DNA from: Sphingobium sp. Ant17
GTDB taxonomy: Bacteria > Pseudomonadota > Alphaproteobacteria > Sphingomonadales > Sphingomonadaceae
Length of the DNA stretch: 64,000 nucleotides
Assembly: GCF_000588875.1 (NCBI RefSeq)
Contig: NZ_JEMV01000003.1
Location: forward strand, 1 to 64,000
Direction: 5' to 3'
Made by a program: the position numbers and the translations under genes. Of the stretch, positions 45,774-57,070 are shown piece by piece (the stretch's first letter is position 1; each line of letters starts with the position of its first letter). Below the pieces are notes generated by a model that was not told the origin of the DNA, did no database searches, and saw nothing but the letters and a program-made list of their open reading frames with translations.

Positions 45774-46763
45774 TTAGCCGGGCCGGTGGCCCTTGCGCCA
45801 TTTGGTCCAGAGGTGGCGGGCGAGCATCAGGGGCGGCATGCGGAGCCAGTGGGAGCGCAGGAAGAAGGCGAAGACAAGTAGCTTGCGGGTCTCGCTACCC
45901 CAGCCGTCGCGGGCGAGCAGGCGGGCGCGGACGAGGCGGTCCCACAGGGTCAGACGTGCGCCGTCGCCATAGAGGGCGAGCGCCAGCCGCCGTGCCTGCT
46001 GCACATGGGCGCGCAGGCCGTGCCGGGCGGCGCGCTGGTCCAACAGGGTCGGATCGCATTCAGCGAGCAGGCCATATATGTCCCACAGGTTGCGCAACCC
46101 GCCCTGCAGATCGCCATCGGCCAGCATATGCGCGGCGGCGTGACAGACGCGGTCTTCCGCCGAGAGCATATATAACCCATCGGCTATCGGTTCAGCGTCA
46201 GCGATCAGCGCCGCAGCATCGGGCCTGGGACGGGCGGTGAGCGGCAGGATGGTGTGATGCACATCGATCATCCGGTCGCGGGTGCGGTGGATCATCGGGG
46301 GGAGTTCGTGCATCCACTGGCGGTAATAGGCGTCGTCATAGGCGTCTTCCTTCACCCATTCCCAGCCCGCCGCGATCAGCGCTTGCTCGACCGCCGCGAG
46401 CCGGTCGCGCGGCACGAGGATGTCGAGGTCACCGATGAAGCGCCCCTGCCCTGCGCGCAGCCGCGCTGCCGCATAAGCGGTGCCCTTGAGCAGGATGACC
46501 CGCACATCGAGGGGACGCAGCGCCTGGACCGCGCGGTCGGCTTCCCACAAGGCCTGGCGCGCTTCGCGAGCGGCGTCGGTGCGCGCGTCGGCGAGGATCG
46601 GCTGCACCGCTGGCGGCACCACGACGTCGGCGAGGCGGAAGGCCAATGTGCCGATCAGCCGTTCCGCGCGCGCTGCGGCGATCAGGCCGTTCCAGCCTGT
46701 CGCATCGAGTGTCGCGACGGACGCGGGATCGCGCAGCGCGCGTACCAACAGCGCGGCGCTCAT
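45774..46763 (-). CDS. Uncharacterised nucleotidyltransferase family protein (HPr-rel-A cassette)
   Basis: A 329-residue protein of the uncharacterised nucleotidyltransferase family (NTP_transf_5-like). The active-site pattern is VILLKGTAYA (residues 89-98) followed by GRFIGDLDILVPRDRL (about 107-122), with paired aspartates D112 and D114 as predicted metal ligands; RMIDVHHTILP supplies the third strand. Such domains occur in natural-product and peptide-modification clusters, where they may nucleotidylate or help transfer groups to a product. The start at 46763 overlaps the kinase stop by four bases (ATGA). It is the last gene of the cassette. Confidence 0.82.
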   Translation of the reverse strand: MSAALLVRALRDPASVATLDATGWNGLIAAARAERLIGTLAFRLADVVVPPAVQPILADARTDAAREARQALWEADRAVQALRPLDVRVILLKGTAYAAARLRAGQGRFIGDLDILVPRDRLAAVEQALIAAGWEWVKEDAYDDAYYRQWMHELPPMIHRTRDRMIDVHHTILPLTARPRPDAAALIADAEPIADGLYMLSAEDRVCHAAAHMLADGDLQGGLRNLWDIYGLLAECDPTLLDQRAARHGLRAHVQQARRLALALYGDGARLTLWDRLVRARLLARDGWGSETRKLLVFAFFLRSHWLRMPPLMLARHLWTKWRKGHRPG

Positions 46764-47623
46764 ACCCGTTCCTCCCACAACGTTTCGACCATGGCGATGG
46801 CATCTGCGCCGGTGGGGAAGTCGATGGCGCGAGCGGGCACATCGCGCACGAAGCGGGTCAGGGCGGCGAAGGCGGGTTCGCCGAGCGCAACATAGTTGGT
46901 CGAGGCTTGAGTGAGGCGCATGAAGATTTCGCCCTGCCCGACCGGCCGGATATCGGGCGCATGGCCGAAGCGGGGGAAGAGCAGCAGGGCGGGCATCGCC
47001 CCCTCCCCCATGCGCGCGACGGCATCGGCGCGAGGGACCATGTGGCGGATGTCGCCCTTGGCGGTGGCGGCGAGCAGCGGTCCCATGCGGGCCTCGCCCA
47101 CCGTATCGGCGACGACCTCGATCGCGCGGTTCTTGAGGCTGACGAGGCGAGGGAAAGGCAGGATCGCACCGCTGTCGAGATCAAGCAGGGCAAATTCATC
47201 GCCCATGAAGCGCCAGCCGCGCTCGCCCAGCAGTGCCGCGAGGGTGGATTTGCCCGACCCGGATTCGCCGGTCATCACCAGTACGCGGCCGTCCTTTTCG
47301 ACGCTCGATGCGTGGAGCAGCAAGTGCCGCCGCCAGCCGAGCGCCATCTGAAGGTTCATGCCCATCTCCGCCGCCAGCAGACCGTGGGACAGACTCATCG
47401 GCGCGGCATCGGCCAGGCCATGGTCGCCAGTGATGAAGATGGAGGGGCGAACCCAGCGACGCAGCATACTGGTCGGCTGGAGCCGGACGGTGAAGTCGGC
47501 GATTTGTCCCGTCACATCGGGATAGGCGGCGTAGAGGCGTTGCAACTGCGCGATCGGCTGCGGCCAGGCCGCGCCGATGCGGAAGGTGGCGGGGCCGATG
47601 CGCAGGGTCAGCGCATGCTTCAT
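46760..47623 (-). CDS. HprK-related kinase A
   Basis: A 287-residue protein related to the C-terminal kinase domain of HPr kinase/phosphorylase. Features: histidine in LLLHASSVEK (about residue 104), P-loop VMTGESGSGKST (117-127), and GWRFMGDEFALLDLDSG with the acidic residues expected for metal and base (about 137-152). It lacks a real HPr partner in this window, so it most likely phosphorylates a serine of another protein or peptide. It matches the kinase named HprK-related kinase A, found with a PqqD-like protein. Starts overlap: four bases with the PqqD-like gene upstream and four with the nucleotidyltransferase downstream. Confidence 0.87.
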   Translation of the reverse strand: MKHALTLRIGPATFRIGAAWPQPIAQLQRLYAAYPDVTGQIADFTVRLQPTSMLRRWVRPSIFITGDHGLADAAPMSLSHGLLAAEMGMNLQMALGWRRHLLLHASSVEKDGRVLVMTGESGSGKSTLAALLGERGWRFMGDEFALLDLDSGAILPFPRLVSLKNRAIEVVADTVGEARMGPLLAATAKGDIRHMVPRADAVARMGEGAMPALLLFPRFGHAPDIRPVGQGEIFMRLTQASTNYVALGEPAFAALTRFVRDVPARAIDFPTGADAIAMVETLWEERV

Positions 47624-47907
47624 GCCGGACGCACCAGACCGAGCGCGGCCAGCGCGTCGAGATGGGCGGCGATTTCGGCGAGCGCTTCGTCGGGTGAGCC
47701 GAGGTCGAATTCCTGCGCCAGCCGGTCATGCAACGCCTGCGCGGTGACGGGCGTGCCATCGGCCATGCGGTCAAGCAGTTCGGGGACCGGGCTGATGACC
47801 ATATGGGTCTGGCCCGACCGGCGATGATAGAGCAGGGTCAGGTCTTCGAGCGCGCAACTGAGCAGCGCGTCGGCCGTATCGCGTCGATAGGATAGGCTGT
47901 TGTCCAT
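47620..47907 (-). CDS. PqqD-family protein of the HPr-rel-A system
   Basis: A 95-residue PqqD-like winged-helix domain (LLSCALEDLTLLYHRRSGQT, VISPVPELLDRMADGTPV, LAQEFDLG, then HLDALAALGLV). PqqD-type domains bind the leader of a substrate peptide and present it to modifying enzymes; here the protein is a stand-alone chaperone. Its strict coupling with the HprK-related kinase (four-base overlap) implies that it delivers the kinase substrate. The glycosyltransferase gene ends about 60 bases upstream. Confidence 0.83.
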   Translation of the reverse strand: MDNSLSYRRDTADALLSCALEDLTLLYHRRSGQTHMVISPVPELLDRMADGTPVTAQALHDRLAQEFDLGSPDEALAEIAAHLDALAALGLVRPA

Positions 47908-47969
47908 AGTCCGGTACCCTGCTGCTTTGGCTCCCCCTAGCGCGGAAGCGTAGCCAAGTGCCTAACGCA

Positions 47970-49129
47970 TCAAGGCAAGGCTGGCGATGGCAGGGCGTGG
48001 GTTTCGGGCCGGTCGGCCAGCGCCGCGAAGGCGCGCCAATAGCCGTCGAGGGCGCGATCGACGCGATGATCACGCACAGCGGCGGCGAGCGTTGCGGGGT
48101 CGGCGGGATGACGCAGCGCGCATTCGATGGCGCGGGCGAAGGCGGCGGCGTCGCCAGTGGGCACCGGGGGATGCTGTCCGGCGGCGGCGAGGACCGGATG
48201 GATATTGGGCGTGCTGTCGGTTGCGACCACGCCTGCGCCGCAGGCCAGCGCTTCGATCAGGGTGGCGCAGAGACCTTCCCAGCGGGAGGGCTGGAGCAGC
48301 AGGTCGGCCTGCCCCATCAGCGAGGCGAGTTGCTGCGGGTCGCTGACGAAGCCTGCGAAACGGACGCGATCAGCGATATCGAGCGTGGCGCATCGGTGCT
48401 GGAGGTCGGCCAGCAGCGGACCCTGGCCTGCGATCGTCAACTGCCAGTCGAGATGGGGGAGCCTGGCCAGCGCTTCGAGGGCCGTTGCCTGATCCTTTTG
48501 CGCGGCCAGCGTCCGACCATCAGCAGGCGCACCGGCGCGGCGGGGTCGCGGGGCAAGCGGGCGGCGCGGGCCTGGTCCATGATGGGGGTCACGGTCGGGC
48601 GCGGCAGCAGGCGCACGGGGCCGCTATCGGCCAGCAGGGCGCGATCATGTTCGCCCATCACGATGGTCAGGGCGCTCAGCCGGGCGATAGCACGGAAGCG
48701 GAGAAGCCTTGCCCGGGCAGCGAGGCCGTCACTGCCGGGGCGTTGGATCGGGTTGGAAATGCGCGCGACCGCCTGCGTCATGGTGCCCAGCGCCGCGAGC
48801 GCGACCAGCATATTGCTCTGGTTGCCCGCTGAATAGAGGATGTCGGGGCGATGCCGCCGGACAAGCCGCACGAGCGCGGGCCATTGCGCGATCATTGCCA
48901 GCCGCCGGTTGCCGCCGGGCGCGGGGATGCGGCGGACGGTCAGCGCCGGATCGATCAGATGCGCCGTCGGCCCATCGGTGCGGGCCATCCACAATTCGAC
49001 GCGCACGCCCCGATGCAGAAGATGGTTGGCGAGCAGAATGGCGACCCGATCAAGGCCGCCGTCGCCGGGTTCGTACAGATAGACCGCCACGGACAGAGCA
49101 TGCGCCGGGGATCGGCGGACGTGGAACAT
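47970..49129 (-). CDS. GT4-type glycosyltransferase of the cassette (frameshifted near 48510)
   Basis: The N-terminal half (VAVYLYEPGDGGLDRVAILL through PVRLLMVGR) and C-terminal half (LTIAGQGPLLADLQHRCATL, QPSRWEGLCATLIEALACGA, GVVATDSTPN) of a GT-B enzyme are in two frames. They join if one base is added at about 48510, for example C to change CGCTGG to CGCCTGG, giving VGRLAAQKDQATALEALARL across the joint and 386 residues. The donor-binding EGLCATLIEAL motif is intact. It lies between the secreted-protein gene and the PqqD-like gene on the same strand, so it probably glycosylates the cassette product or its carrier. Confidence 0.83.
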
Positions 49130-49149
49130 GCAGCTACCCTTGCGTTGGA

Positions 49150-49183
49150 TCGAACCTTTGCAGGTTCGACGTCCTCAACGTCG
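49150..49183 (-). promoter_or_regulatory. Tandem hairpins between the secreted-protein and glycosyltransferase genes
   Basis: TCGAACC (49150-49156) pairs with GGTTCGA (49163-49169), and CGACGT (49167-49172) pairs with ACGTCG (49178-49183). The stems overlap by three bases, so they are alternatives or stack. They sit in the 110-base gap after the short secreted-protein gene and could attenuate readthrough to the downstream genes. No strong U-tract follows. Confidence 0.4.
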
Positions 49184-49239
49184 GGAAGCCGTATTCGGTC
49201 TGATCCTTATGGGTAGTGCCGTCGCGAAAAAGCGGCGCT

Positions 49240-49664
49240 TTAGCGCGGCATTTGCAGCGAGGCGTAGCAGGTGAAGCCGCTCTGCCCCGATTGGAGGCGG
49301 CGGATATAATTGAGATAGGCCTGGTTCTGCTGATAGCTGGTGCCGGGCAGCGGGCGGCCTCGCAAGGCTTGCTTCACCTGTTCGCCGGTGAAGCTGCGCC
49401 CGGTGCCGGGAAAGGCGCCGGGGGTGCCCGCAGGGACGACATGCCCATTGGGCGCGATGAAATTGCCCGCCCGACCATTGTCGGGCACGGGGATGGTGCA
49501 ATTGAGCACCGAGCGGCGGTGTTAGCCAGCGCGGGGCGGATCGACACGATGGCGGATGCCGCCATTGCCCCGCCCATCAACAATTGGCGACGCGAGGCGA
49601 CGGCCGGTTCAGCGGCGGTTTCGTCCGTCTGGGGACCGTCCTGATCGGGCATCTGCTCGCTCAT
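49240..49664 (-). CDS. Short Tat-type secreted protein, possible cassette substrate (frameshifted near 49511)
   Basis: The N-terminal part from 49664 (MSEQMPDQ...) contains a Tat-like signal, ASRRQLLMGGAMAASAIVSI followed by RPALA. The rest is in the frame one base over: LNCTIPVPDNGRAGNFIAPN, then GTGRSFTGEQVKQALRGRPL, ending SGFTCYASLQMPR at 49240. One added base at about 49511 joins them into 141 residues, about 90 of them mature, with two cysteines (NCT and FTCYA). It is rich in Gly, Pro, Ser and Thr and resembles no enzyme. As the first gene of the cassette it is the best candidate for the modified product, but this is inference. A start upstream at GTG 49688 is possible. Confidence 0.62.
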
Positions 49665-49765
49665 ATCGTCCTGTTCCGCATCTCGCACTTGCCAAAGCGT
49701 AATGATTGCACGCTATTGGGCTTAGGTCTTCGCAGTGTTTGCGCGACAAATCCAGTGCGGTAACC

Positions 49766-51052
49766 ATGAATCGACTCAGCATTTCCCAGATTACCGCGTC
49801 GCTTGCCGTGCTTATGCTGGGCACCGGCGGCGCCTTGTTGCTCGGCGCTTCACCTGTTAGCATCGCCCTGCCGATCCTGGCCGGGCTGATCGTGCTGCTG
49901 ATCGCGGCGCATGGCCACGACCCGGAGCCCGACCTGCCCGCCCCCCCGATCGAACAGCCCGACCTGATCGACCATCCCGATTTCCCGACCTTGCTGGAGG
50001 GGATTTCCGATCCGCTGATGCTGGTGGAAAAGGGGCGGATCGTGCGCGCCAATCGTGCGGCGCAGCGCCTGCTGGGCGCGCATATCGAGGGGGATGATGC
50101 GCGCATCGCCATCCGCCATCCCGCCGCCGCGGAACGACTGGCGAGCCTCGCACCGCTAGCCGATCCGTTCATGATCGAACTGGTGGGCCTTGGCACCCGC
50201 GAACAGCGTTGGCAGATGCGCGTCGCCCCCGTCGGCGCGGTGACGTCGATGCGGCGGCTGGTGCATCTGGTCGACCATAGCGGCACCCATGCGGCCGAGC
50301 GGATGCGCGTCGATTTCGTCGCCAATGCCAGCCACGAGCTGCGCACACCGCTGGCGGGGATATTGGGCTTCATCGAGACGCTGGCCGACCCGGAATTGGG
50401 CAAGGACCATGAGACGCGGCAACGCTTCCTCAAGATCATGGACGGCGAAGCGCGGCGGATGCAGCGATTGATCGACGATCTCATCTCGCTCTCGCGGATC
50501 GAGGCGGAGAAATATCGGGCGCCCGACAGTGCGGTGGACCTGTCCGAACTGGTCGCCGAAGTCGTCGGTGTGTTCCGGTCCAGCCATGGCGTGCGCGGGC
50601 GGGACGTCGAGATGGACATCGCCCACTCGCTGCCGCTGGTGCTGGGCGACCGGGCGCAATTATCGCAACTGGTGCATAATCTGATTGGCAATTCGATCAA
50701 ATATGGTCGCCCCGAAACGCCGATCCGCGTCACCTTGACCGAGGGACCAAGCGGCATGACGCGGCTGGCGGTCGCAGACGAGGGCGAAGGCATTGGCCCC
50801 GATCATCTGCCGCGCCTGACCGAACGCTTCTATCGCGTCGATTCGGGACGGAGCCGGGCGATGGGCGGAACGGGGCTTGGCCTCGCCATCGTCAAACATA
50901 TCGTCGAACGGCATCGTGGGCGGCTGGATATTGCCAGCACCCTGGGCAAGGGCACGACCATCACCATATTGTTGCCGCCCGCAACGGATGATGGGGTGAC
51001 GAAGGCCGATGAGCGGCGGCGGCCATCCGCGCTTTCCGGTACAGTGTCATGA
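49766..51052 (+). CDS. phoR: Phosphate-regulon sensor histidine kinase PhoR
   Basis: A 428-residue membrane kinase: two N-terminal helices (ITASLAVLMLGTGGALLLGA and SIALPILAGLIVLLIAAHG), a PAS-like domain (FPTLLEGISDPLMLVEKGRI), the dimerisation helix with phospho-histidine in ANASHELRTPLAGILGF, and the ATPase with NLIGNSIKYGRPE, VADEGEGIG and GGTGLGLAIVKH. It phosphorylates PhoB under phosphate limitation. I use the ATG at 49766 (MNRLSISQI). It is the first gene of the phoR-pstSCAB-phoU-phoB run; a Pho-box-like element overlaps its stop. Confidence 0.92.
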   Translation: MNRLSISQITASLAVLMLGTGGALLLGASPVSIALPILAGLIVLLIAAHGHDPEPDLPAPPIEQPDLIDHPDFPTLLEGISDPLMLVEKGRIVRANRAAQRLLGAHIEGDDARIAIRHPAAAERLASLAPLADPFMIELVGLGTREQRWQMRVAPVGAVTSMRRLVHLVDHSGTHAAERMRVDFVANASHELRTPLAGILGFIETLADPELGKDHETRQRFLKIMDGEARRMQRLIDDLISLSRIEAEKYRAPDSAVDLSELVAEVVGVFRSSHGVRGRDVEMDIAHSLPLVLGDRAQLSQLVHNLIGNSIKYGRPETPIRVTLTEGPSGMTRLAVADEGEGIGPDHLPRLTERFYRVDSGRSRAMGGTGLGLAIVKHIVERHRGRLDIASTLGKGTTITILLPPATDDGVTKADERRRPSALSGTVS

Positions 51053-51156: not shown

Positions 51157-52205
51157 GTGATGAGATTCGCGTTGCTCGCTGCTACGGCGCTGAGCGTCCT
51201 TAGCCTGGCCGCTTGCGGCGATCAGGGCGGCGCGGGCGCGACCCGTGACCAGATTCGCGCGGTTGGCTCCTCCACCGTCTATCCCTTCGCCACCGCAGCA
51301 TCCGAACTGTTCGTGCAAACCAATGCGGGCATGAAGTCGCCGATCATCGAATCGACCGGCACCGGCGGCGGCATGAAGTTGTTTTGCAGCGGCGTTGGCG
51401 CGCAATATCCCGATATGGCCAATGCATCGCGCCGGATGAAGAAGACCGAGTTCGATATGTGCCAGACCAATGGCGTCAAGGACATCATCGAGGTGCAGAT
51501 CGGTGTCGATGGCCTTGCCTTTGCAGAGGCCAAGAACGGCCCTGGCTACAAACTGACCCCCAAGATCGTCTATGAAGCGCTGGCTGCCAATCCCTATGGC
51601 AAGGGGCCGAACAAGGCCCAGACCTGGAAGGATGTCGACCCCAGCCTGCCCGCCATTGCCATTTCGGTGTTCGGCCCGCCGTCCACCAGCGGCACACGCG
51701 ATTCGCTGGCCGAGTTGATCCTGGAAAAGGGCTGTGAGAGCGATCCGGCGATGACGGCGCTCAAGGAAAAGAGCGAGGACGAGTTCAAAGCGACCTGCAC
51801 CCGCGTTCGCGAGGACGGCAAATATGTCGATTCGGGCGAAAACGACAATCTGATCGTGCAGAAGCTGGGCGCCAACCCCAACGCGGTCGGCGTGTTCGGC
51901 TTCAGCTTCCTGGAAGAAAATCGCGCGACATTGAAGGATATTCCCATCGATGGATCGAAGCATCCTATGAGACCGTATCCTCGGGCCAATATCCCGGTGC
52001 GCGGCCGCTCTACATTTATGTGAAGAAAGCGCACATGGCCGCCATTCCTGGCCTTCAGGGATTTCTTGACGCCTTCGCCAATAATTGGGCACCGGGCGGT
52101 GCGCTGACCAAGCGCGGCATGGTCGCTGCCCCCGAAGACGTCCGCAAAGCGAATGCGCAAACCGTCAAGGCACTGACCGTGCTTGACGGCGCGCAGCTGA
52201 AATAA
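51157..52205 (+). CDS. pstS: Phosphate ABC transporter substrate-binding protein PstS (frameshifted near 51953)
   Basis: A periplasmic phosphate-binding lipoprotein-like protein: signal LLAATALSVLSLAAC, then RAVGSSTVYPFATAASELF, STGTGGGMKLFCSG and SGTRDSLAELILEKGCESD, all part of the phosphate pocket. After LKDIPIDG the frame is lost; the usual C-terminus continues one base over (IEASYETVSSGQYPGARPLY, then KAHMAAIPGLQGFLDAFANN) to a stop at 52205. Adding one base at about 51953 gives 349 residues. The other pst genes follow immediately, so an unbroken gene is expected in the living strain. Confidence 0.9.
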
Positions 52206-52214
52206 GCGAAGCCC

Positions 52215-53608
52215 ATGACCGGACCTGCAATTCTTCTGCTGCTCGTTGGCCTGGGCGCGATCGCCTGGGTTAGCGCCCGTGCCCGCGCCATGCGCTTGCA
52301 AGCGGTGGCACGGACCACCGGACGGCGCGACGCCGTTCACAGCCTGCCAGGCTATCATGCTGGTATGTGGCGCTATGGACGCTGTTGCCCGCCGCCATTT
52401 TCCTGATCATATGGGCCAATGTGTCGCCAAGCCTGGTGACGCAGGCGGTTTTGACCGATCCGGCGGCGCAGACCTTGCCAGCCAATGATTTCACCCGCTC
52501 GGCCATATTGGGCGAAGCGCGCGCGATCGCATCGGGACGACAGGCCGGGGCCTTCAATCCGGCCTCGGAGGCGCTGGTCGAACCTTATGCGCGCGCGCTC
52601 GACAAGTTCGGTTTGGCGGGCGCGATCCTGGCACTGGTGCTGGCCTTTGCCGGGGGTGCCTATGCCTTCACCCGCATCCGCCCCGATTTCCGCGCCCGCA
52701 CCCGGGTCGAGCGGTTGGTGATGGCCTTGCTACTGGTGGCGTCGCTGCTGGCGATCGTAACGACCGTCGGCATCGTCGCCTCGCTATTGTGGGAAAGTTT
52801 TCGCTTCTTTTCGATGGTCAATCCGATCGACTTTTTGTTCGGGACCAAATGGAGCCCGCAATCGGCCGCAATGGGCTATGGCAATGAGGATGCGTTCGGT
52901 GCGATCCCGCTCTTCTGGGGCACGATCTTCATCGGCGCGATCATCGCCATGATCGTCGCGATCCCACTGGGCCTGATGAGCGCGGTCTATCTGACCCAAT
53001 ATGCCAGCCCGACGGTCCGCCGTTGGATGAAGCCAACGCTGGAGATGCTCGCGGGCGTGCCAACGGTGGTCTATGGCTATTTCGCGGCGCTCACCATTGC
53101 GCCGGCGTTGCGCGATTTTGCGGTGATGATCGGCATTTCCGGCGCATCGTCGGAAAGCGCGTTGGCCGCCGGCCTGGTCATGGGCGTGATGATCATTCCC
53201 TTTGTCTCCTCCATGGCCGATGACAGCATCGCCGCGGTGCCGCAGTCGATGCGCGACGGCAGCCTGGCGATGGGTGCTACCACCAGCGAGACGATCAAAC
53301 GCGTCCTCATCCCCGCCGCCCTGCCCGGCGTCGTCGGCGGCGTGTTGCTCGCCGTCAGCCGTGCCATCGGCGAGACGATGATCGTCGTCATGGCCGCAGG
53401 GCTTGCCGCCAACCTGACGCTCAACCCCTTCTCCAGCGTGACCACGGTGACGACGCAGATCGTCCAGTTGCTGACCGGCGATCAGGAGTTCGACAGCGCC
53501 AAGACGCTGGCCGCCTTCGCTCTGGGGCTGGTCCTGTTCATCATCACCTTGTTGCTCAACATCGTGGCCCTGCGGGTCGTGAAGAAATATCGCGAGGCTT
53601 ACGAATGA
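52215..53608 (+). CDS. pstC: Phosphate ABC transporter permease PstC (frameshifted near 52360)
   Basis: Inner-membrane channel subunit. The first frame gives MTGPAILLLLVGLGAIAWVS and HSLPGYHA; then the sequence shifts one base, continuing WYVALWTLLPAAIFLIIW. One added base at about 52360 (C, making GCCTGG) yields 464 residues. The main permease domain includes GTIFIGAIIAMIVAIPLGLM and the ATPase-contacting loop MRDGSLAMGATTSETIKRVL. This PstC has the long N-terminal extension seen in sphingomonads. Its stop overlaps the pstA start by four bases. Confidence 0.9.
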
Positions 53609-54849
53609 CCGTCGAACGTCTGCCCACCGACTGGAAGTCGGAGGCGATGCGCAAGCGGATTGCGGGACGCTATGCCAAGGAACGCCGCTTTCGGCTGATC
53701 GGCTTAGGGGCCGTGACGCTGTCCGCCGCTTTCCTGGCTTTCCTGCTCTTCACCATGATGGGCAATGGCCTGCGCGGATTTACCCGGACCGAGATTGCCC
53801 TGACGGTCGATTTCCCGGCCGCGCCGCTGCTGCTCGATCCTGCCACGATCACCGATGAATCGCTCAATCAGGCGAACCTGCCGATGGTGACCAGCACCGT
53901 CGCCAAACAGGCGTTGGGGCCGGACGCGGACTCGCTGTTGTCCTCGACCGCCTGGATCACCATCCGCGATGCGATCAAGGCCGATCCGTCGATCCTGAGC
54001 CGGACCGAGACGATCGCCCTGCCTGCTTCGACCGGCATCGACCTGGCCGCCAAGAGCGAGGGTCCGCCCGAAGCCGAAGCCGCCGTCGCGCGATTGGAAA
54101 AGGCGGGCGTGCTGACGACCGGTTTCAACTGGAATTTCCTGTCGGCCAGCGACGGCACCGATCCGGCGCAGGTCGGCATCTGGGGCGCGTTCAAGGGCAC
54201 GTTGCTGACCATGCTGGTGACGCTGTTGCTGAGCTTCCCAGTGGGCGTGGCGACCGCCCTTTATCTAGAGGAATATGCGCCCAAGGCCTGGTGGACCGAC
54301 ATTATCGAAGTGTCGATCAACAATCTGGCCGCCGTCCCTTCGATCATCTTCGGCTTGCTCGGCCTATCGATCTTCCTCAACCTGCTGCATCTGCCCCGTT
54401 CGGCGGCGCTGGTCGGCGGCATGACGCTGGCGCTGATGACGATGCCGGTCATCGTCATCGCCGGACGCAATGCGATCAAGTCGGTGCCACCCAGCATCCG
54501 CGACGCAGCGCTCGGCATCGGGGCCAGCCCGGTGCAGGTGGTGTTCCAGCATGTCCTGCCGCTCGCCCTGCCCGGCATCCTGACGGGCACGATCATCGGC
54601 ATGGCGCGCGCGCTGGGCGAGACCGCGCCGCTGCTGATGATCGGCATGCGCGCCTTCATCGCCACGCCGCCCGGCGGGATCAGCGATCCGGCGACCGTCC
54701 TGCCGGTCCAGATCTTCCTATGGTCCGACGAAGTGTCGAAGGGCTTTGTCGAAAAGACATCGGCCGCGATCATCGTGCTGCTGGCCTTCCTCTTGGCGAT
54801 GAACGGCCTCGCCATCTATCTGCGCAACAAGTTTGAAACACGGTGGTAA
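53605..54849 (+). CDS. pstA: Phosphate ABC transporter permease PstA
   Basis: A 414-residue permease partner of PstC. A first helix ([20 protein letters not shown]) and a large periplasmic insertion (about residues 60-185) precede the transport domain: [40 protein letters not shown], and the ATPase-contacting [20 protein letters not shown]. It is longer than the E. coli protein because of the periplasmic insertion. The ATG overlaps pstC (ATGA). Confidence 0.93.
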
Positions 54850-54857
54850 ATACACCC

Positions 54858-55645
54858 ATGACCCAAGACCAAATCAATCTGCTATCGCCAACCCCAAAAT
54901 GTCGGCGCGCGACGTCAATGTCTTCTATGGTGAGAAGCAGGCGATCAAGCGCGTGTCGATCGATGTCGACATGGACCATGTCACCGCCTTCATCGGCCCT
55001 TCGGGCTGCGGCAAGTCAACCTTCCTGCGGACCTTGAACCGTATGAACGACACAGTCGCTTCGGCGCGGGTCGAGGGCGATATCACGCTGGATGGCGAAG
55101 ATATCTATGCCGCGTCCATGGACGTGGTGCAGTTGCGCGCGCGGGTGGGGATGGTGTTCCAGAAGCCCAACCCGTTCCCCAAGTCGATTTACGAGAATAT
55201 CGCCTATGGGCCGCGCATCCACGGCCTGGCCGCGTCGAAGGCGGATATGGACGTGGTGGTCGAAAAATCGCTGCGTCGTGCGGGCCTGTGGGAAGAGGTC
55301 AAGGATCGGCTGCACGACAGCGGCACCGCACTGTCGGGCGGCCAGCAGCAGCGGCTGTGCATTGGCCGCGCGATCGCGGTCGAGCCCGAAGTCATCCTGA
55401 TGGACGAGCCCTGTTCAGCGCTCGACCCGATCGCGACCGCCAAGATCGAGGAACTGATCCACGAACTGCGCGGCCGCTATGCGATCGTCATCGTTACCCA
55501 CAATATGCAGCAGGCCGCGCGCGTATCGCAGCGGACGGCCTTCTTCCATCTGGGTGAGCTGGTGGAATATGGGGTGACGTCGGACATCTTCACCAATCCG
55601 CGCCAGGAGCGGACCAAAGATTATATCACCGGTCGTTACGGCTGA
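54858..55645 (+). CDS. pstB: Phosphate ABC transporter ATPase PstB (frameshifted near 54882)
   Basis: The ATPase of the phosphate transporter: Walker A in [20 protein letters not shown], the Q-loop in [20 protein letters not shown], signature [14 protein letters not shown], Walker [13 protein letters not shown] and switch histidine IVTHNMQQ. The natural start MTQDQINL at 54858 is out of frame with the body; one added G at about 54882 (CTGGCT) gives [17 protein letters not shown] and 262 residues. Alternatively the ATG at 54899 (MSARDVN) already gives an intact 248-residue ATPase. It follows pstA by eight bases. Confidence 0.92.
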
Positions 55646-55667
55646 TCGGCGCGGAGAGAGACAAGAC

Positions 55668-56366
55668 ATGGCAGAACATACGATCAAGGCGTTTGACGAC
55701 GACATCGACAGGCTGCGCGGCCTGATCTCCGAAATGGGTGGTCGCGCCGAGGCCGCAATCGAAAATGCGATGTTGGCGCTGCAGCGGCAGGATCTGGCGC
55801 TGGCGGCCGAGGTGGTTCAGGGCGACAAGCGCATCGACGCGATCGAGGCGGAGGTCGAGAAGCTGGTGATCGAGGTCATCGCGCTGCGCGCGCCGATGGC
55901 CAACGACCTGCGCGACGTGATCGCCGCGCTCAAGATCGTCAGCGTGATCGAGCGGATCGGCGACTATGCCAAGAATATCGCCAAGCGTGTGCCGTTGATC
56001 GACACCAACAAGCGGTTGTTGGAGCCGATGTCGCTGCTCCCCTCCATGGGGCAGGTCGCGGCCGAGATGGTGCATGATGTGCTCAACGCTTATGCCGCGC
56101 GTGATCCCGACCTGGCCCAGGCCGTGGTCGATCGCGACGCGGTGGTCGATGATTTCTACAACAGCGTGTTTCGCACGCTGGTGACCTTCATGGTCGAAAA
56201 CCCCAAGACGATCAGCGAATGTGCGCAATTGCTGTTCGTCGCCAAGCATATCGAGCGGATCGGCGATCACGCCACCAACGTCGCCGAGATGGTCTATTAT
56301 GCCGCGACCGGCCAGACCATGCCGGAGCGGGAACGCGGCGGCACTGACGCCCAGGCGGAGATCTGA
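55668..56366 (+). CDS. phoU: Phosphate signalling complex protein PhoU
   Basis: A 232-residue protein of two similar three-helix bundles. Metal-binding acidic motifs are visible in both: RIDAIEAEVEKLVIE with IERIGDYAKNIAKR, and the second-half copy VVDDFYNSVF with HIERIGDHATNVAE. PhoU links the state of the Pst transporter to PhoR and restrains the regulon when phosphate is ample. It lies between pstB and phoB, each with a short gap. Confidence 0.94.
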   Translation: MAEHTIKAFDDDIDRLRGLISEMGGRAEAAIENAMLALQRQDLALAAEVVQGDKRIDAIEAEVEKLVIEVIALRAPMANDLRDVIAALKIVSVIERIGDYAKNIAKRVPLIDTNKRLLEPMSLLPSMGQVAAEMVHDVLNAYAARDPDLAQAVVDRDAVVDDFYNSVFRTLVTFMVENPKTISECAQLLFVAKHIERIGDHATNVAEMVYYAATGQTMPERERGGTDAQAEI

Positions 56367-56368
56367 CC

Positions 56369-57070
56369 ATGGCACGGGCCAAAATGCTGCTGGTGGAAGA
56401 TGACGCGGCGCTGGCCGAATTGCTCATCTGGCATTTCAAGCGCGAGGATTTCGACGTCGCCCATACGGTCGATGGCGAGGAAGCCTTGCTGATGGCGCAG
56501 GAGAATGTGCCAGACATCGTGTTGCTCGACTGGATGGTCGAAAGCCTGTCGGGGATCGAGGTCTGCCGTCGACTGCGGCGGATGACCGGCACCGCCAATG
56601 TGCCGATCATCATGCTGACCGCGCGCGGTGAGGAAGAGGATCGCGTCCGTGGCCTGGAAACCGGGGCGGACGATTATGTGACCAAGCCCTTTTCGCCCCG
56701 CGAACTGGTGGCGCGGGTCGGCGCGGTGCTGCGCCGGGTGCGTCCGGCGCTGGCGGGTGAGACGCTGACCTTCGCCGATGTCGAGATGGACACGGTGGGG
56801 CATAAGGTGCGGCGCGGCGGACAGGTGATCCCGCTGGGGCCGACCGAATTCCGGCTGCTCAAGCATTTCCTGGAGCATCCGGGCTGGGTCTTCTCGCGTG
56901 AGCGGCTGCTCGACAGCGTGTGGGGGCAGGATAGCGATATCGAGCTGCGCACGGTCGATGTGCATATCCGCCGCTTGCGCAAGGCGATCAATGCCGATGG
57001 CGTCTATACCGACATCATCCGCACGGTGCGGTCGGCGGGCTATGCGCTGGATACCGACGGCGTAGCATGA
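56369..57070 (+). CDS. phoB: Phosphate-regulon response regulator PhoB
   Basis: A 233-residue OmpR-family regulator. Receiver domain, residues about 5-120: LLVEDDAALAELL, phospho-aspartate in PDIVLLDWMVES, IIMLTARGEEED and DDYVTKPFSPRELV. DNA-binding winged helix, residues about 135-230: LGPTEFRLLKHFLEHPGWVF, VDVHIRRLRKAI and IRTVRSAGYALD. It starts two bases after the phoU stop. It should bind the candidate Pho box at 51044-51072, so the operon is probably self-activating. Confidence 0.94.
   Translation: MARAKMLLVEDDAALAELLIWHFKREDFDVAHTVDGEEALLMAQENVPDIVLLDWMVESLSGIEVCRRLRRMTGTANVPIIMLTARGEEEDRVRGLETGADDYVTKPFSPRELVARVGAVLRRVRPALAGETLTFADVEMDTVGHKVRRGGQVIPLGPTEFRLLKHFLEHPGWVFSRERLLDSVWGQDSDIELRTVDVHIRRLRKAINADGVYTDIIRTVRSAGYALDTDGVA

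Follow-up and report, generated by a model that had tools for sequence, protein, structure and literature searches.

Three described systems come closest to the locus considered here. Linear polyphosphorylated peptide (LPP, lpp) clusters of Bacillota comprise a recognition element (RRE) for ribosomally synthesized and post-translationally modified peptides (RiPPs), an HprK-like kinase, an NTP transferase and a dedicated precursor, as well as the SpI-like peptidase LppS, the MsbA-like exporter LppD and a YxxP leader motif, and the kinase LppK phosphorylates Ser3 of the LPP core (PMC13381572, accessible part). This source calls LPP restricted to Bacillota, and its main text, in the accessible part, does not use the terms Tat, twin-arginine, Proteobacteria, Pseudomonadota, Sphingo or Gram-negative. 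In lasso peptide pathways, the kinases modify the C-terminal Ser, and PsmN adds a hexose to the phospho-Ser (PMC9266682, accessible part); in bufferins, an export signal (Sec) replaces the classical RiPP leader (PMC12452194, accessible part). Here we describe a cassette found in a 64,000-nucleotide stretch of Sphingobium sp. Ant17 (contig NZ_JEMV01000003.1, positions 1 to 64,000; hereafter the window), the core of which is four genes encoding a short protein with a twin-arginine translocation (Tat) type signal (TATP), a PqqD-like protein, the HprK-related kinase A (HprK-A) and a nucleotidyltransferase (NTase). By analogy with the pathways above, we consider it rather probable that TATP is the missing substrate of the HPr-rel-A system, and that the cassette is a proteobacterial pathway that corresponds to the LPP and paeninodin phosphopeptide pathways of Bacillota but exports its product by Tat.

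The likeness to LPP clusters lies in the combination of a discrete RRE, an HprK-like kinase and an NTP transferase, as judged by family rather than against the LppB, LppK and LppN sequences; further likenesses to that system, as far as its source is accessible, are the dedicated precursor and clusters that are often located in polysaccharide loci. The cassette precursor differs in having a Tat-type signal instead of the YxxP leader. Although its mode of action is probably that of LPP, the cassette does not qualify as an LPP cluster, and we regard it as a variant of the HprK-like-kinase RiPP pathways. With the paeninodin and pseudomycoidin lasso systems (PadeK, ThcoK, SyanK, PsmN), as described in the accessible part of PMC9266682, it shares an HprK-like kinase with conserved His, Lys and an acidic pair, an annotated nucleotidyltransferase and a PqqD-like protein (B1 in the lasso systems). 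However, Glu occupies the second acidic position of HprK-A in all 114 aligned kinases, whereas the lasso set has His-Lys-Asp-Asp, the matching of positions being our own reading; and a B2 protease and a macrolactam (Asn-synthetase-like) synthetase are absent among the flanking genes scanned, as a preliminary description of this DNA had stated. The bufferins, representing RiPPs made with MNIO chemistry, share a precursor with an export signal, which is Sec and not Tat, and the main text of PMC12452194, in its accessible part, mentions neither Tat, twin-arginine nor HprK.

No description of the HPr-rel-A system was found in the open-access literature (subscription papers were mostly outside the search); it was encountered only as database family names. 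Open-access searches with HprK-like kinase and PqqD family terms led to PMC13381572 only; searches combining twin-arginine with either HprK and PqqD or RiPP yielded no relevant paper, and the accessible parts of PMC7533575 and PMC12710340 contain no closer case. The NCBIfam models of the HPr-rel-A system cover the kinase and the PqqD-like protein, whereas no NCBIfam or Pfam model at cut-off matches the Tat proteins scanned, which were four intact ones and the two TATP frames of the window. The proposed assignment gives this kinase/PqqD system its likely substrate. If true, it would place phosphopeptide RiPP chemistry in Pseudomonadota as well as in Bacillota and link it to Tat export, and it would bear on how signal-peptide RiPPs are kept from export until they are fully modified, a problem raised in PMC12452194 (accessible part).

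Gene content and distribution of the cassette

The preliminary description reported five same-strand genes, some joined by four-base overlaps, including a kinase of the HprK-related A type and its PqqD partner. Both ATGA overlaps, at the PqqD/HprK and HprK/NTase junctions, were confirmed, and both HPr-rel-A system models, TIGR04352 and the adjacent TIGR04353, are exceeded (Table 1). The NTase, HprK-A and PqqD genes are located on the minus strand as described, but the glycosyltransferase and the short secreted protein are each divided between two frames. The latter protein is predicted to be secreted, as described; however, its Tat-type signal, the frame breaks and the divergent phoR-pst-phoU-phoB neighborhood had been missed. 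By motif only, the signal in the window frame (SRRQLLMGGA...ALA) is composed of a twin-arginine motif, a hydrophobic stretch and an AxA site, and TatC is encoded in the same genome. The catalytic residues are intact in the window and conserved among relatives: H104, K125, D142 and E143 of HprK-A are kept in 114/114 aligned kinases, and K93, G94, D112 and D114 of the NTase (the K-G and D-x-D motifs, numbered from the later ATG) in 107/107 aligned proteins. Compared by sequence with solved structures, HprK-A gave P-loop proteins at best (E 0.015) and HPr kinase at E 0.23, and the NTase gave a single match (E 0.29).

In a set of 397 genomes of the same family (Sphingomonadaceae), 142 encode a kinase above the TIGR04352 cut-off and are referred to as kinase-positive, including all 11 examined genomes of the genus. 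We collected the kinase surroundings from 80 of these 142 genomes, with at least one per positive genus as labeled, which together with the window constitute 81 loci (individual loci and genomes are designated L and G, respectively); genes were called and clustered, and neighbors within 4.5 kb were counted. The gene order TATP-PqqD-HprK-NTase recurs over these loci, with the NTase called in 77, PqqD in 74 and TATP in 56 of the 81. Gene calling overlooked TATP in 25 loci, 21 of which were recovered by a hidden Markov model (HMM), so that TATP is present in 77/81 and was not found in L055, L056, L087 and L109. In this tabulation of sphingomonad neighbors, which had been suggested previously, three partners of the kinase are almost constant but the glycosyltransferase is present in 3/81 loci only.

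For counts at the genome level we used profile A1, which was built from 40 TATPs out of 65 usable sequences from the 81 loci; 10 loci without a start or an RR motif, the window included, were left out, as were others without a >100-bit match. A1 matched 145/397 family genomes, namely 142/142 kinase-positive and 3/255 kinase-negative genomes, the latter three matches being weak (E 5e-5 to 4e-4). The claim that the short secreted protein is conserved with the kinase in relatives thus holds, including eight genomes where the two are not adjacent: TATP is located within 3.5 kb of the kinase in 134/142 genomes and elsewhere in the genome in the other eight. The earlier idea of a secreted peptide substrate is thereby strongly supported by genomics, but without the glycosyltransferase as a core component.

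The eight split genomes are seven from one genus (g43) and G040. On the kinase side (5/8 split genomes), PqqD-HprK-NTase lies apart from TATP in L056, L087, L109 and L126; HprK-NTase lies apart in L055 (G040), whose PqqD remains with TATP. In Sphingopyxis, L200, L205 and L206 have TATP without a same-strand cassette gene in the stretch examined, whereas in L183, also from Sphingopyxis, the cassette is in place. TATP relatives numbered 339 in one genome collection; a plasmid collection yielded one relative, annotated as a hypothetical protein. As a separate observation, a 148-149-aa protein (cluster 31), which begins MAAKKLNLDNFLPYRLSIASNALSERI in L056 and appears MarR-like by eye, is encoded directly upstream of PqqD in L056, L087, L109 and L126, where TATP is located away from the cassette.

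Across the phylum, 61 of 398 sampled genomes are above the kinase cut-off, and 40 kinase loci outside the family were read individually. A Tat-type protein is encoded upstream of PqqD (or of the kinase if PqqD was not found) in 36/40 of these loci by reading and in 27/40 by an automated pattern search; a pattern differing little from it, applied to the first 70 residues, matched 49/53 called TATPs and, as background, 56/1336 and 2/240 other genes. By HMM, 33/40 loci have a same-strand NTase within 6 kb. The ending C-[W or similar]-x-S-[F/L/I] was read in 24 of the 36 Tat proteins. Profile A3, built from 15 CWxS-type Tat proteins, matched 39/398 genomes, all of them among the 61 kinase-positive ones, a few matches being weak (E down to 5e-4); these include four genomes without a correctly placed adjacent Tat gene (L216, L235, L241, and L243), in which the Tat gene is elsewhere or inverted. 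A Tat partner was identified in 60 of the 61 kinase-positive genomes, 39 of them by A3, 11 Sphingomonadaceae by A1 and 10 by eye; the remaining genome, G580, is 57% complete, has no A3 match, and its locus was outside those read.

Features of the Tat-signal protein and proposed mechanism

The residues invariant in A1 are R31, L34, P49, A52, S57, C61, G79, A121, G135, C138 and S141, among them the second Arg and the Leu of the twin-arginine motif; those of A3 include C40, C62, C140, W141 and S143. Two serines are conserved in TATP, one at the mature start ahead of the first Cys and the other in a C-terminal CxxS. Our preferred candidate phosphosite is the serine in the C-[YWF]-x-S motif at the C-terminus, because A1 and A3 both show a constant distance between it and the Cys; the serine that directly follows the signal cleavage site comes second.

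The alignment between A1 and A3 is limited to 42 columns that cover the signal peptide and the first mature residues up to the first Cys (E 2.6e-9), and A4, a third type built from eight sequences, again aligns with both just around the signal and mature start. The best match of TATP among solved structures by sequence (E 0.01) is one chain, in the signal region. Within sphingomonads, the TATP signal is more conserved than the mature part: pairs with a mature identity of 0.5-0.6 have a signal identity of 0.636 for TATP (381 pairs), as compared with 0.481 for the Tat protein PhoD (54 pairs) and 0.329 for PstS (415 pairs). A constrained common signal joined to divergent mature parts is the pattern expected if a PqqD-type element reads the leader, and the Tat signal may double as a leader that is read by PqqD.

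From these observations we infer the following sequence of binding and chemical steps. TATP would be made in the cytosol, where its Tat signal peptide would serve as a RiPP-type leader for the PqqD-like protein, whose binding would perhaps delay export; binding of peptides by PqqD-type proteins is established for the RRE family. HprK-A would then phosphorylate a conserved serine of TATP, and the PF14907 NTase could add a nucleotide or a hexose onto this phosphate. The modified TATP would be exported by Tat, after which an ordinary signal peptidase would remove the leader. If TATP is the substrate, a phosphate is predicted on TATP that is lost in kinase mutants. Considerably more tentatively, we suggest that Tat-exported phospho- or glycophospho-proteins of this kind occur phylum-wide, with the Tat signal serving as the RiPP leader and PqqD as both recognition element and Tat proofreading chaperone, which would hold export until HprK-A and the NTase have modified the conserved serine; the leader would have been retained, while the mature parts diverged into several families between which alignment is lost.

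Several points weigh against TATP as the substrate. The Fisher test of TATP-kinase co-occurrence (p 4e-106) ignores kinship among the genomes. A PqqD HMM match is located beside the kinase in just 29/40 non-family loci, and 12 of the 36 non-family Tat partners do not have a C-terminal CxxS, most of these having an SPG-W/F-W-like stretch instead; the C-terminal site is therefore not universal. The A1/A3 alignment could have another cause, since a common Tat signal alone would give some alignment, and the PhoD control set used in the signal comparison mixes paralogs. Neither a SpI-like leader peptidase nor an MsbA-like exporter is among the flanking genes scanned at 41.3-57.1 kb, small open reading frames at 43.3-44.2 kb excepted, and the [YW]xxP leader motif of lasso and LPP RREs is present in 0/65 sphingomonad TATPs. 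The NTase step is weak because deletion of LppN had no visible effect in LPP (PMC13381572, accessible part). Finally, TATP itself is broken in the window: its frame starts at 49664, changes near 49500-49518 and then continues to 49240.

Alternative readings of the locus

The break in TATP, together with that in the glycosyltransferase, which is divided into a frame at 48437-49129 and an overlapping one at 47970-48440 that is open to about 48509, might indicate that the cassette is decaying in this strain and that two of its five genes are pseudogenes. We consider this unlikely. Comparison by tblastn with intact Sphingobium homologs revealed four coding breaks between about 48.5 and 52.4 kb, namely in the glycosyltransferase, TATP, pstS and pstC, whereas HprK, PqqD, NTase and PhoR are whole. 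A patch of indel errors is likelier than gene decay because the breaks in pstS and pstC lie within a few kb of the other two while neighboring genes are intact, and because the assembly consists of 199 contigs with 6.19% contamination. TATP matches are likewise divided between two frames in two relatives, L101 and L045.

Table 1. Features of the cassette and its surroundings in the window.
Feature	Position	Strand	Basis of assignment
Nucleotidyltransferase (NTase)	45774-46763, open to GTG at 46778	minus	PF14907, E 2.5e-47
HprK-related kinase A (HprK-A)	46760-47623	minus	TIGR04352 HprK_rel_A, 226.2 bits, cut-off 200
PqqD-like (RRE) protein, HPr-rel-A system	47620-47907	minus	TIGR04353 PqqD_rel_X, 72.9 bits, cut-off 35
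GT4-type glycosyltransferase, accessory	47970-49129, two frames	minus	PF13439/PF13579 + PF00534; tblastn for split
TATP, short Tat-signal protein, proposed substrate	49240-49664, two frames	minus	intact homologs in relatives
PhoR-like histidine kinase, context, divergent neighbor of TATP	49706-51052	plus	best match TIGR02966
pstS-pstC-pstA-pstB-phoU-phoB, context	51157-57070	plus	Pfam

The genomic neighborhood suggests another function for TATP, that of a periplasmic partner of PhoR rather than a substrate, with the cassette being a module that reads phosphate or energy and thereby tunes how sphingomonads respond to phosphate. In the window, the PhoR-like kinase (TIGR02966, 292.7 bits, which is under the cut-off of 334.2 yet the best match) is followed by pst-phoU-phoB, divergent to the cassette. 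A divergent PhoR-like histidine kinase is present upstream in 64/81 loci by gene cluster and in 64/81 by the kinase H-box, or in 68/81 by either, the two sets being partly different. All eight relocated TATP loci, which were read individually, are still divergent to a PhoR-like kinase. In seven of these genomes no other protein matches TIGR02966 with an E-value of 1e-60 or lower; the eighth has two such matches, of which this kinase is the better. However, L225, which is from the same taxonomic order, is the only one of the 40 non-family loci with pst genes and a histidine-kinase box, and in L060, L090, L095 and L124 the cassette is present but no histidine-kinase box was found in the stretch examined. 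The excess of PHO-box scores in the TATP-phoR gap is weak (11/46 loci vs 10% in shuffles), whereas the control upstream of pstS works (35/49 vs 7% in shuffles), which also weakens TATP as a candidate PhoB-regulated gene. A role as PhoR partner is improbable in our view, and the phoR-pst linkage is an unexplained synteny of sphingomonads.

Similarly low in probability is that the cassette makes a small peptide, as in RiPPs of the LPP or bufferin type, with TATP cut further after export and a fragment of it being the active compound. Such a route would be in line with LPP precursors, which are 35-200 aa long and are cleaved by a signal-peptidase-like enzyme (PMC13381572, accessible part), and with the RiPP precursors with signal peptides that are known elsewhere (PMC12452194, accessible part). 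On the other hand, the mature parts in A1, A2 and A3, with about 90 aa or more, contain conserved residues up to their very end, and no extra protease gene is present among the flanking genes scanned.

The proposal that the target of HprK-A is HPr or another housekeeping protein of the cytosol, with TATP as a passenger, is very improbable: the kinase is weakly related to HPr kinase (PF07475, E 0.006; TIGR00679, E 0.0025; the solved HPr kinase, E 0.23), but TATP co-occurs with it in all kinase-positive family genomes, PqqD-type proteins bind peptides, and HPr becomes an unlikely target because the same genome has separate genes for a canonical short HPr kinase and for HPr, about 1.6 kb apart and away from the cassette (G000:C12, 9549-11575).

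Accessory and variant genes

The glycosyltransferase, previously counted as a cassette member, was identified in the window, L035 and L040 only (the window and 2/80 loci). In a second set of 80 named loci, TATP, PqqD and the kinase are together on one strand in 74, and the TATP-PqqD gap exceeds 900 bases, the size of a glycosyltransferase gene, in 23 of these 74, a measured gap in which the gene was not re-identified. All loci with the larger gap are Sphingobium or metagenome-assembled genomes ranked among Sphingobium. We therefore rejected the glycosyltransferase as a core part; it is an accessory of Sphingobium, and, given its rarity beside the kinase, glycosylation by this enzyme lies outside the core.

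Several non-family loci show further variation. L207, L209, L210, L215, L217, L220, L221, L223, L224 and L226 encode a different class of Tat partner, many with SPG[WF]W-like and AYLNA-like motifs, and several partners of this class have a nearby gene whose secreted product contains a KPSVV.G stretch and looks trypsin-like by eye. In L211, L229, L233 and L238-L242, the NTase starts 2.4-3.2 kb past the kinase start, which leaves space for one extra gene; such an intervening gene was called in L211 and L241. An asparagine-synthase-like gene (about 630 aa, MCG start), read by eye as of the polysaccharide-locus type, follows the NTase in L208, L212, L214, L219, L235, L241 and L245.

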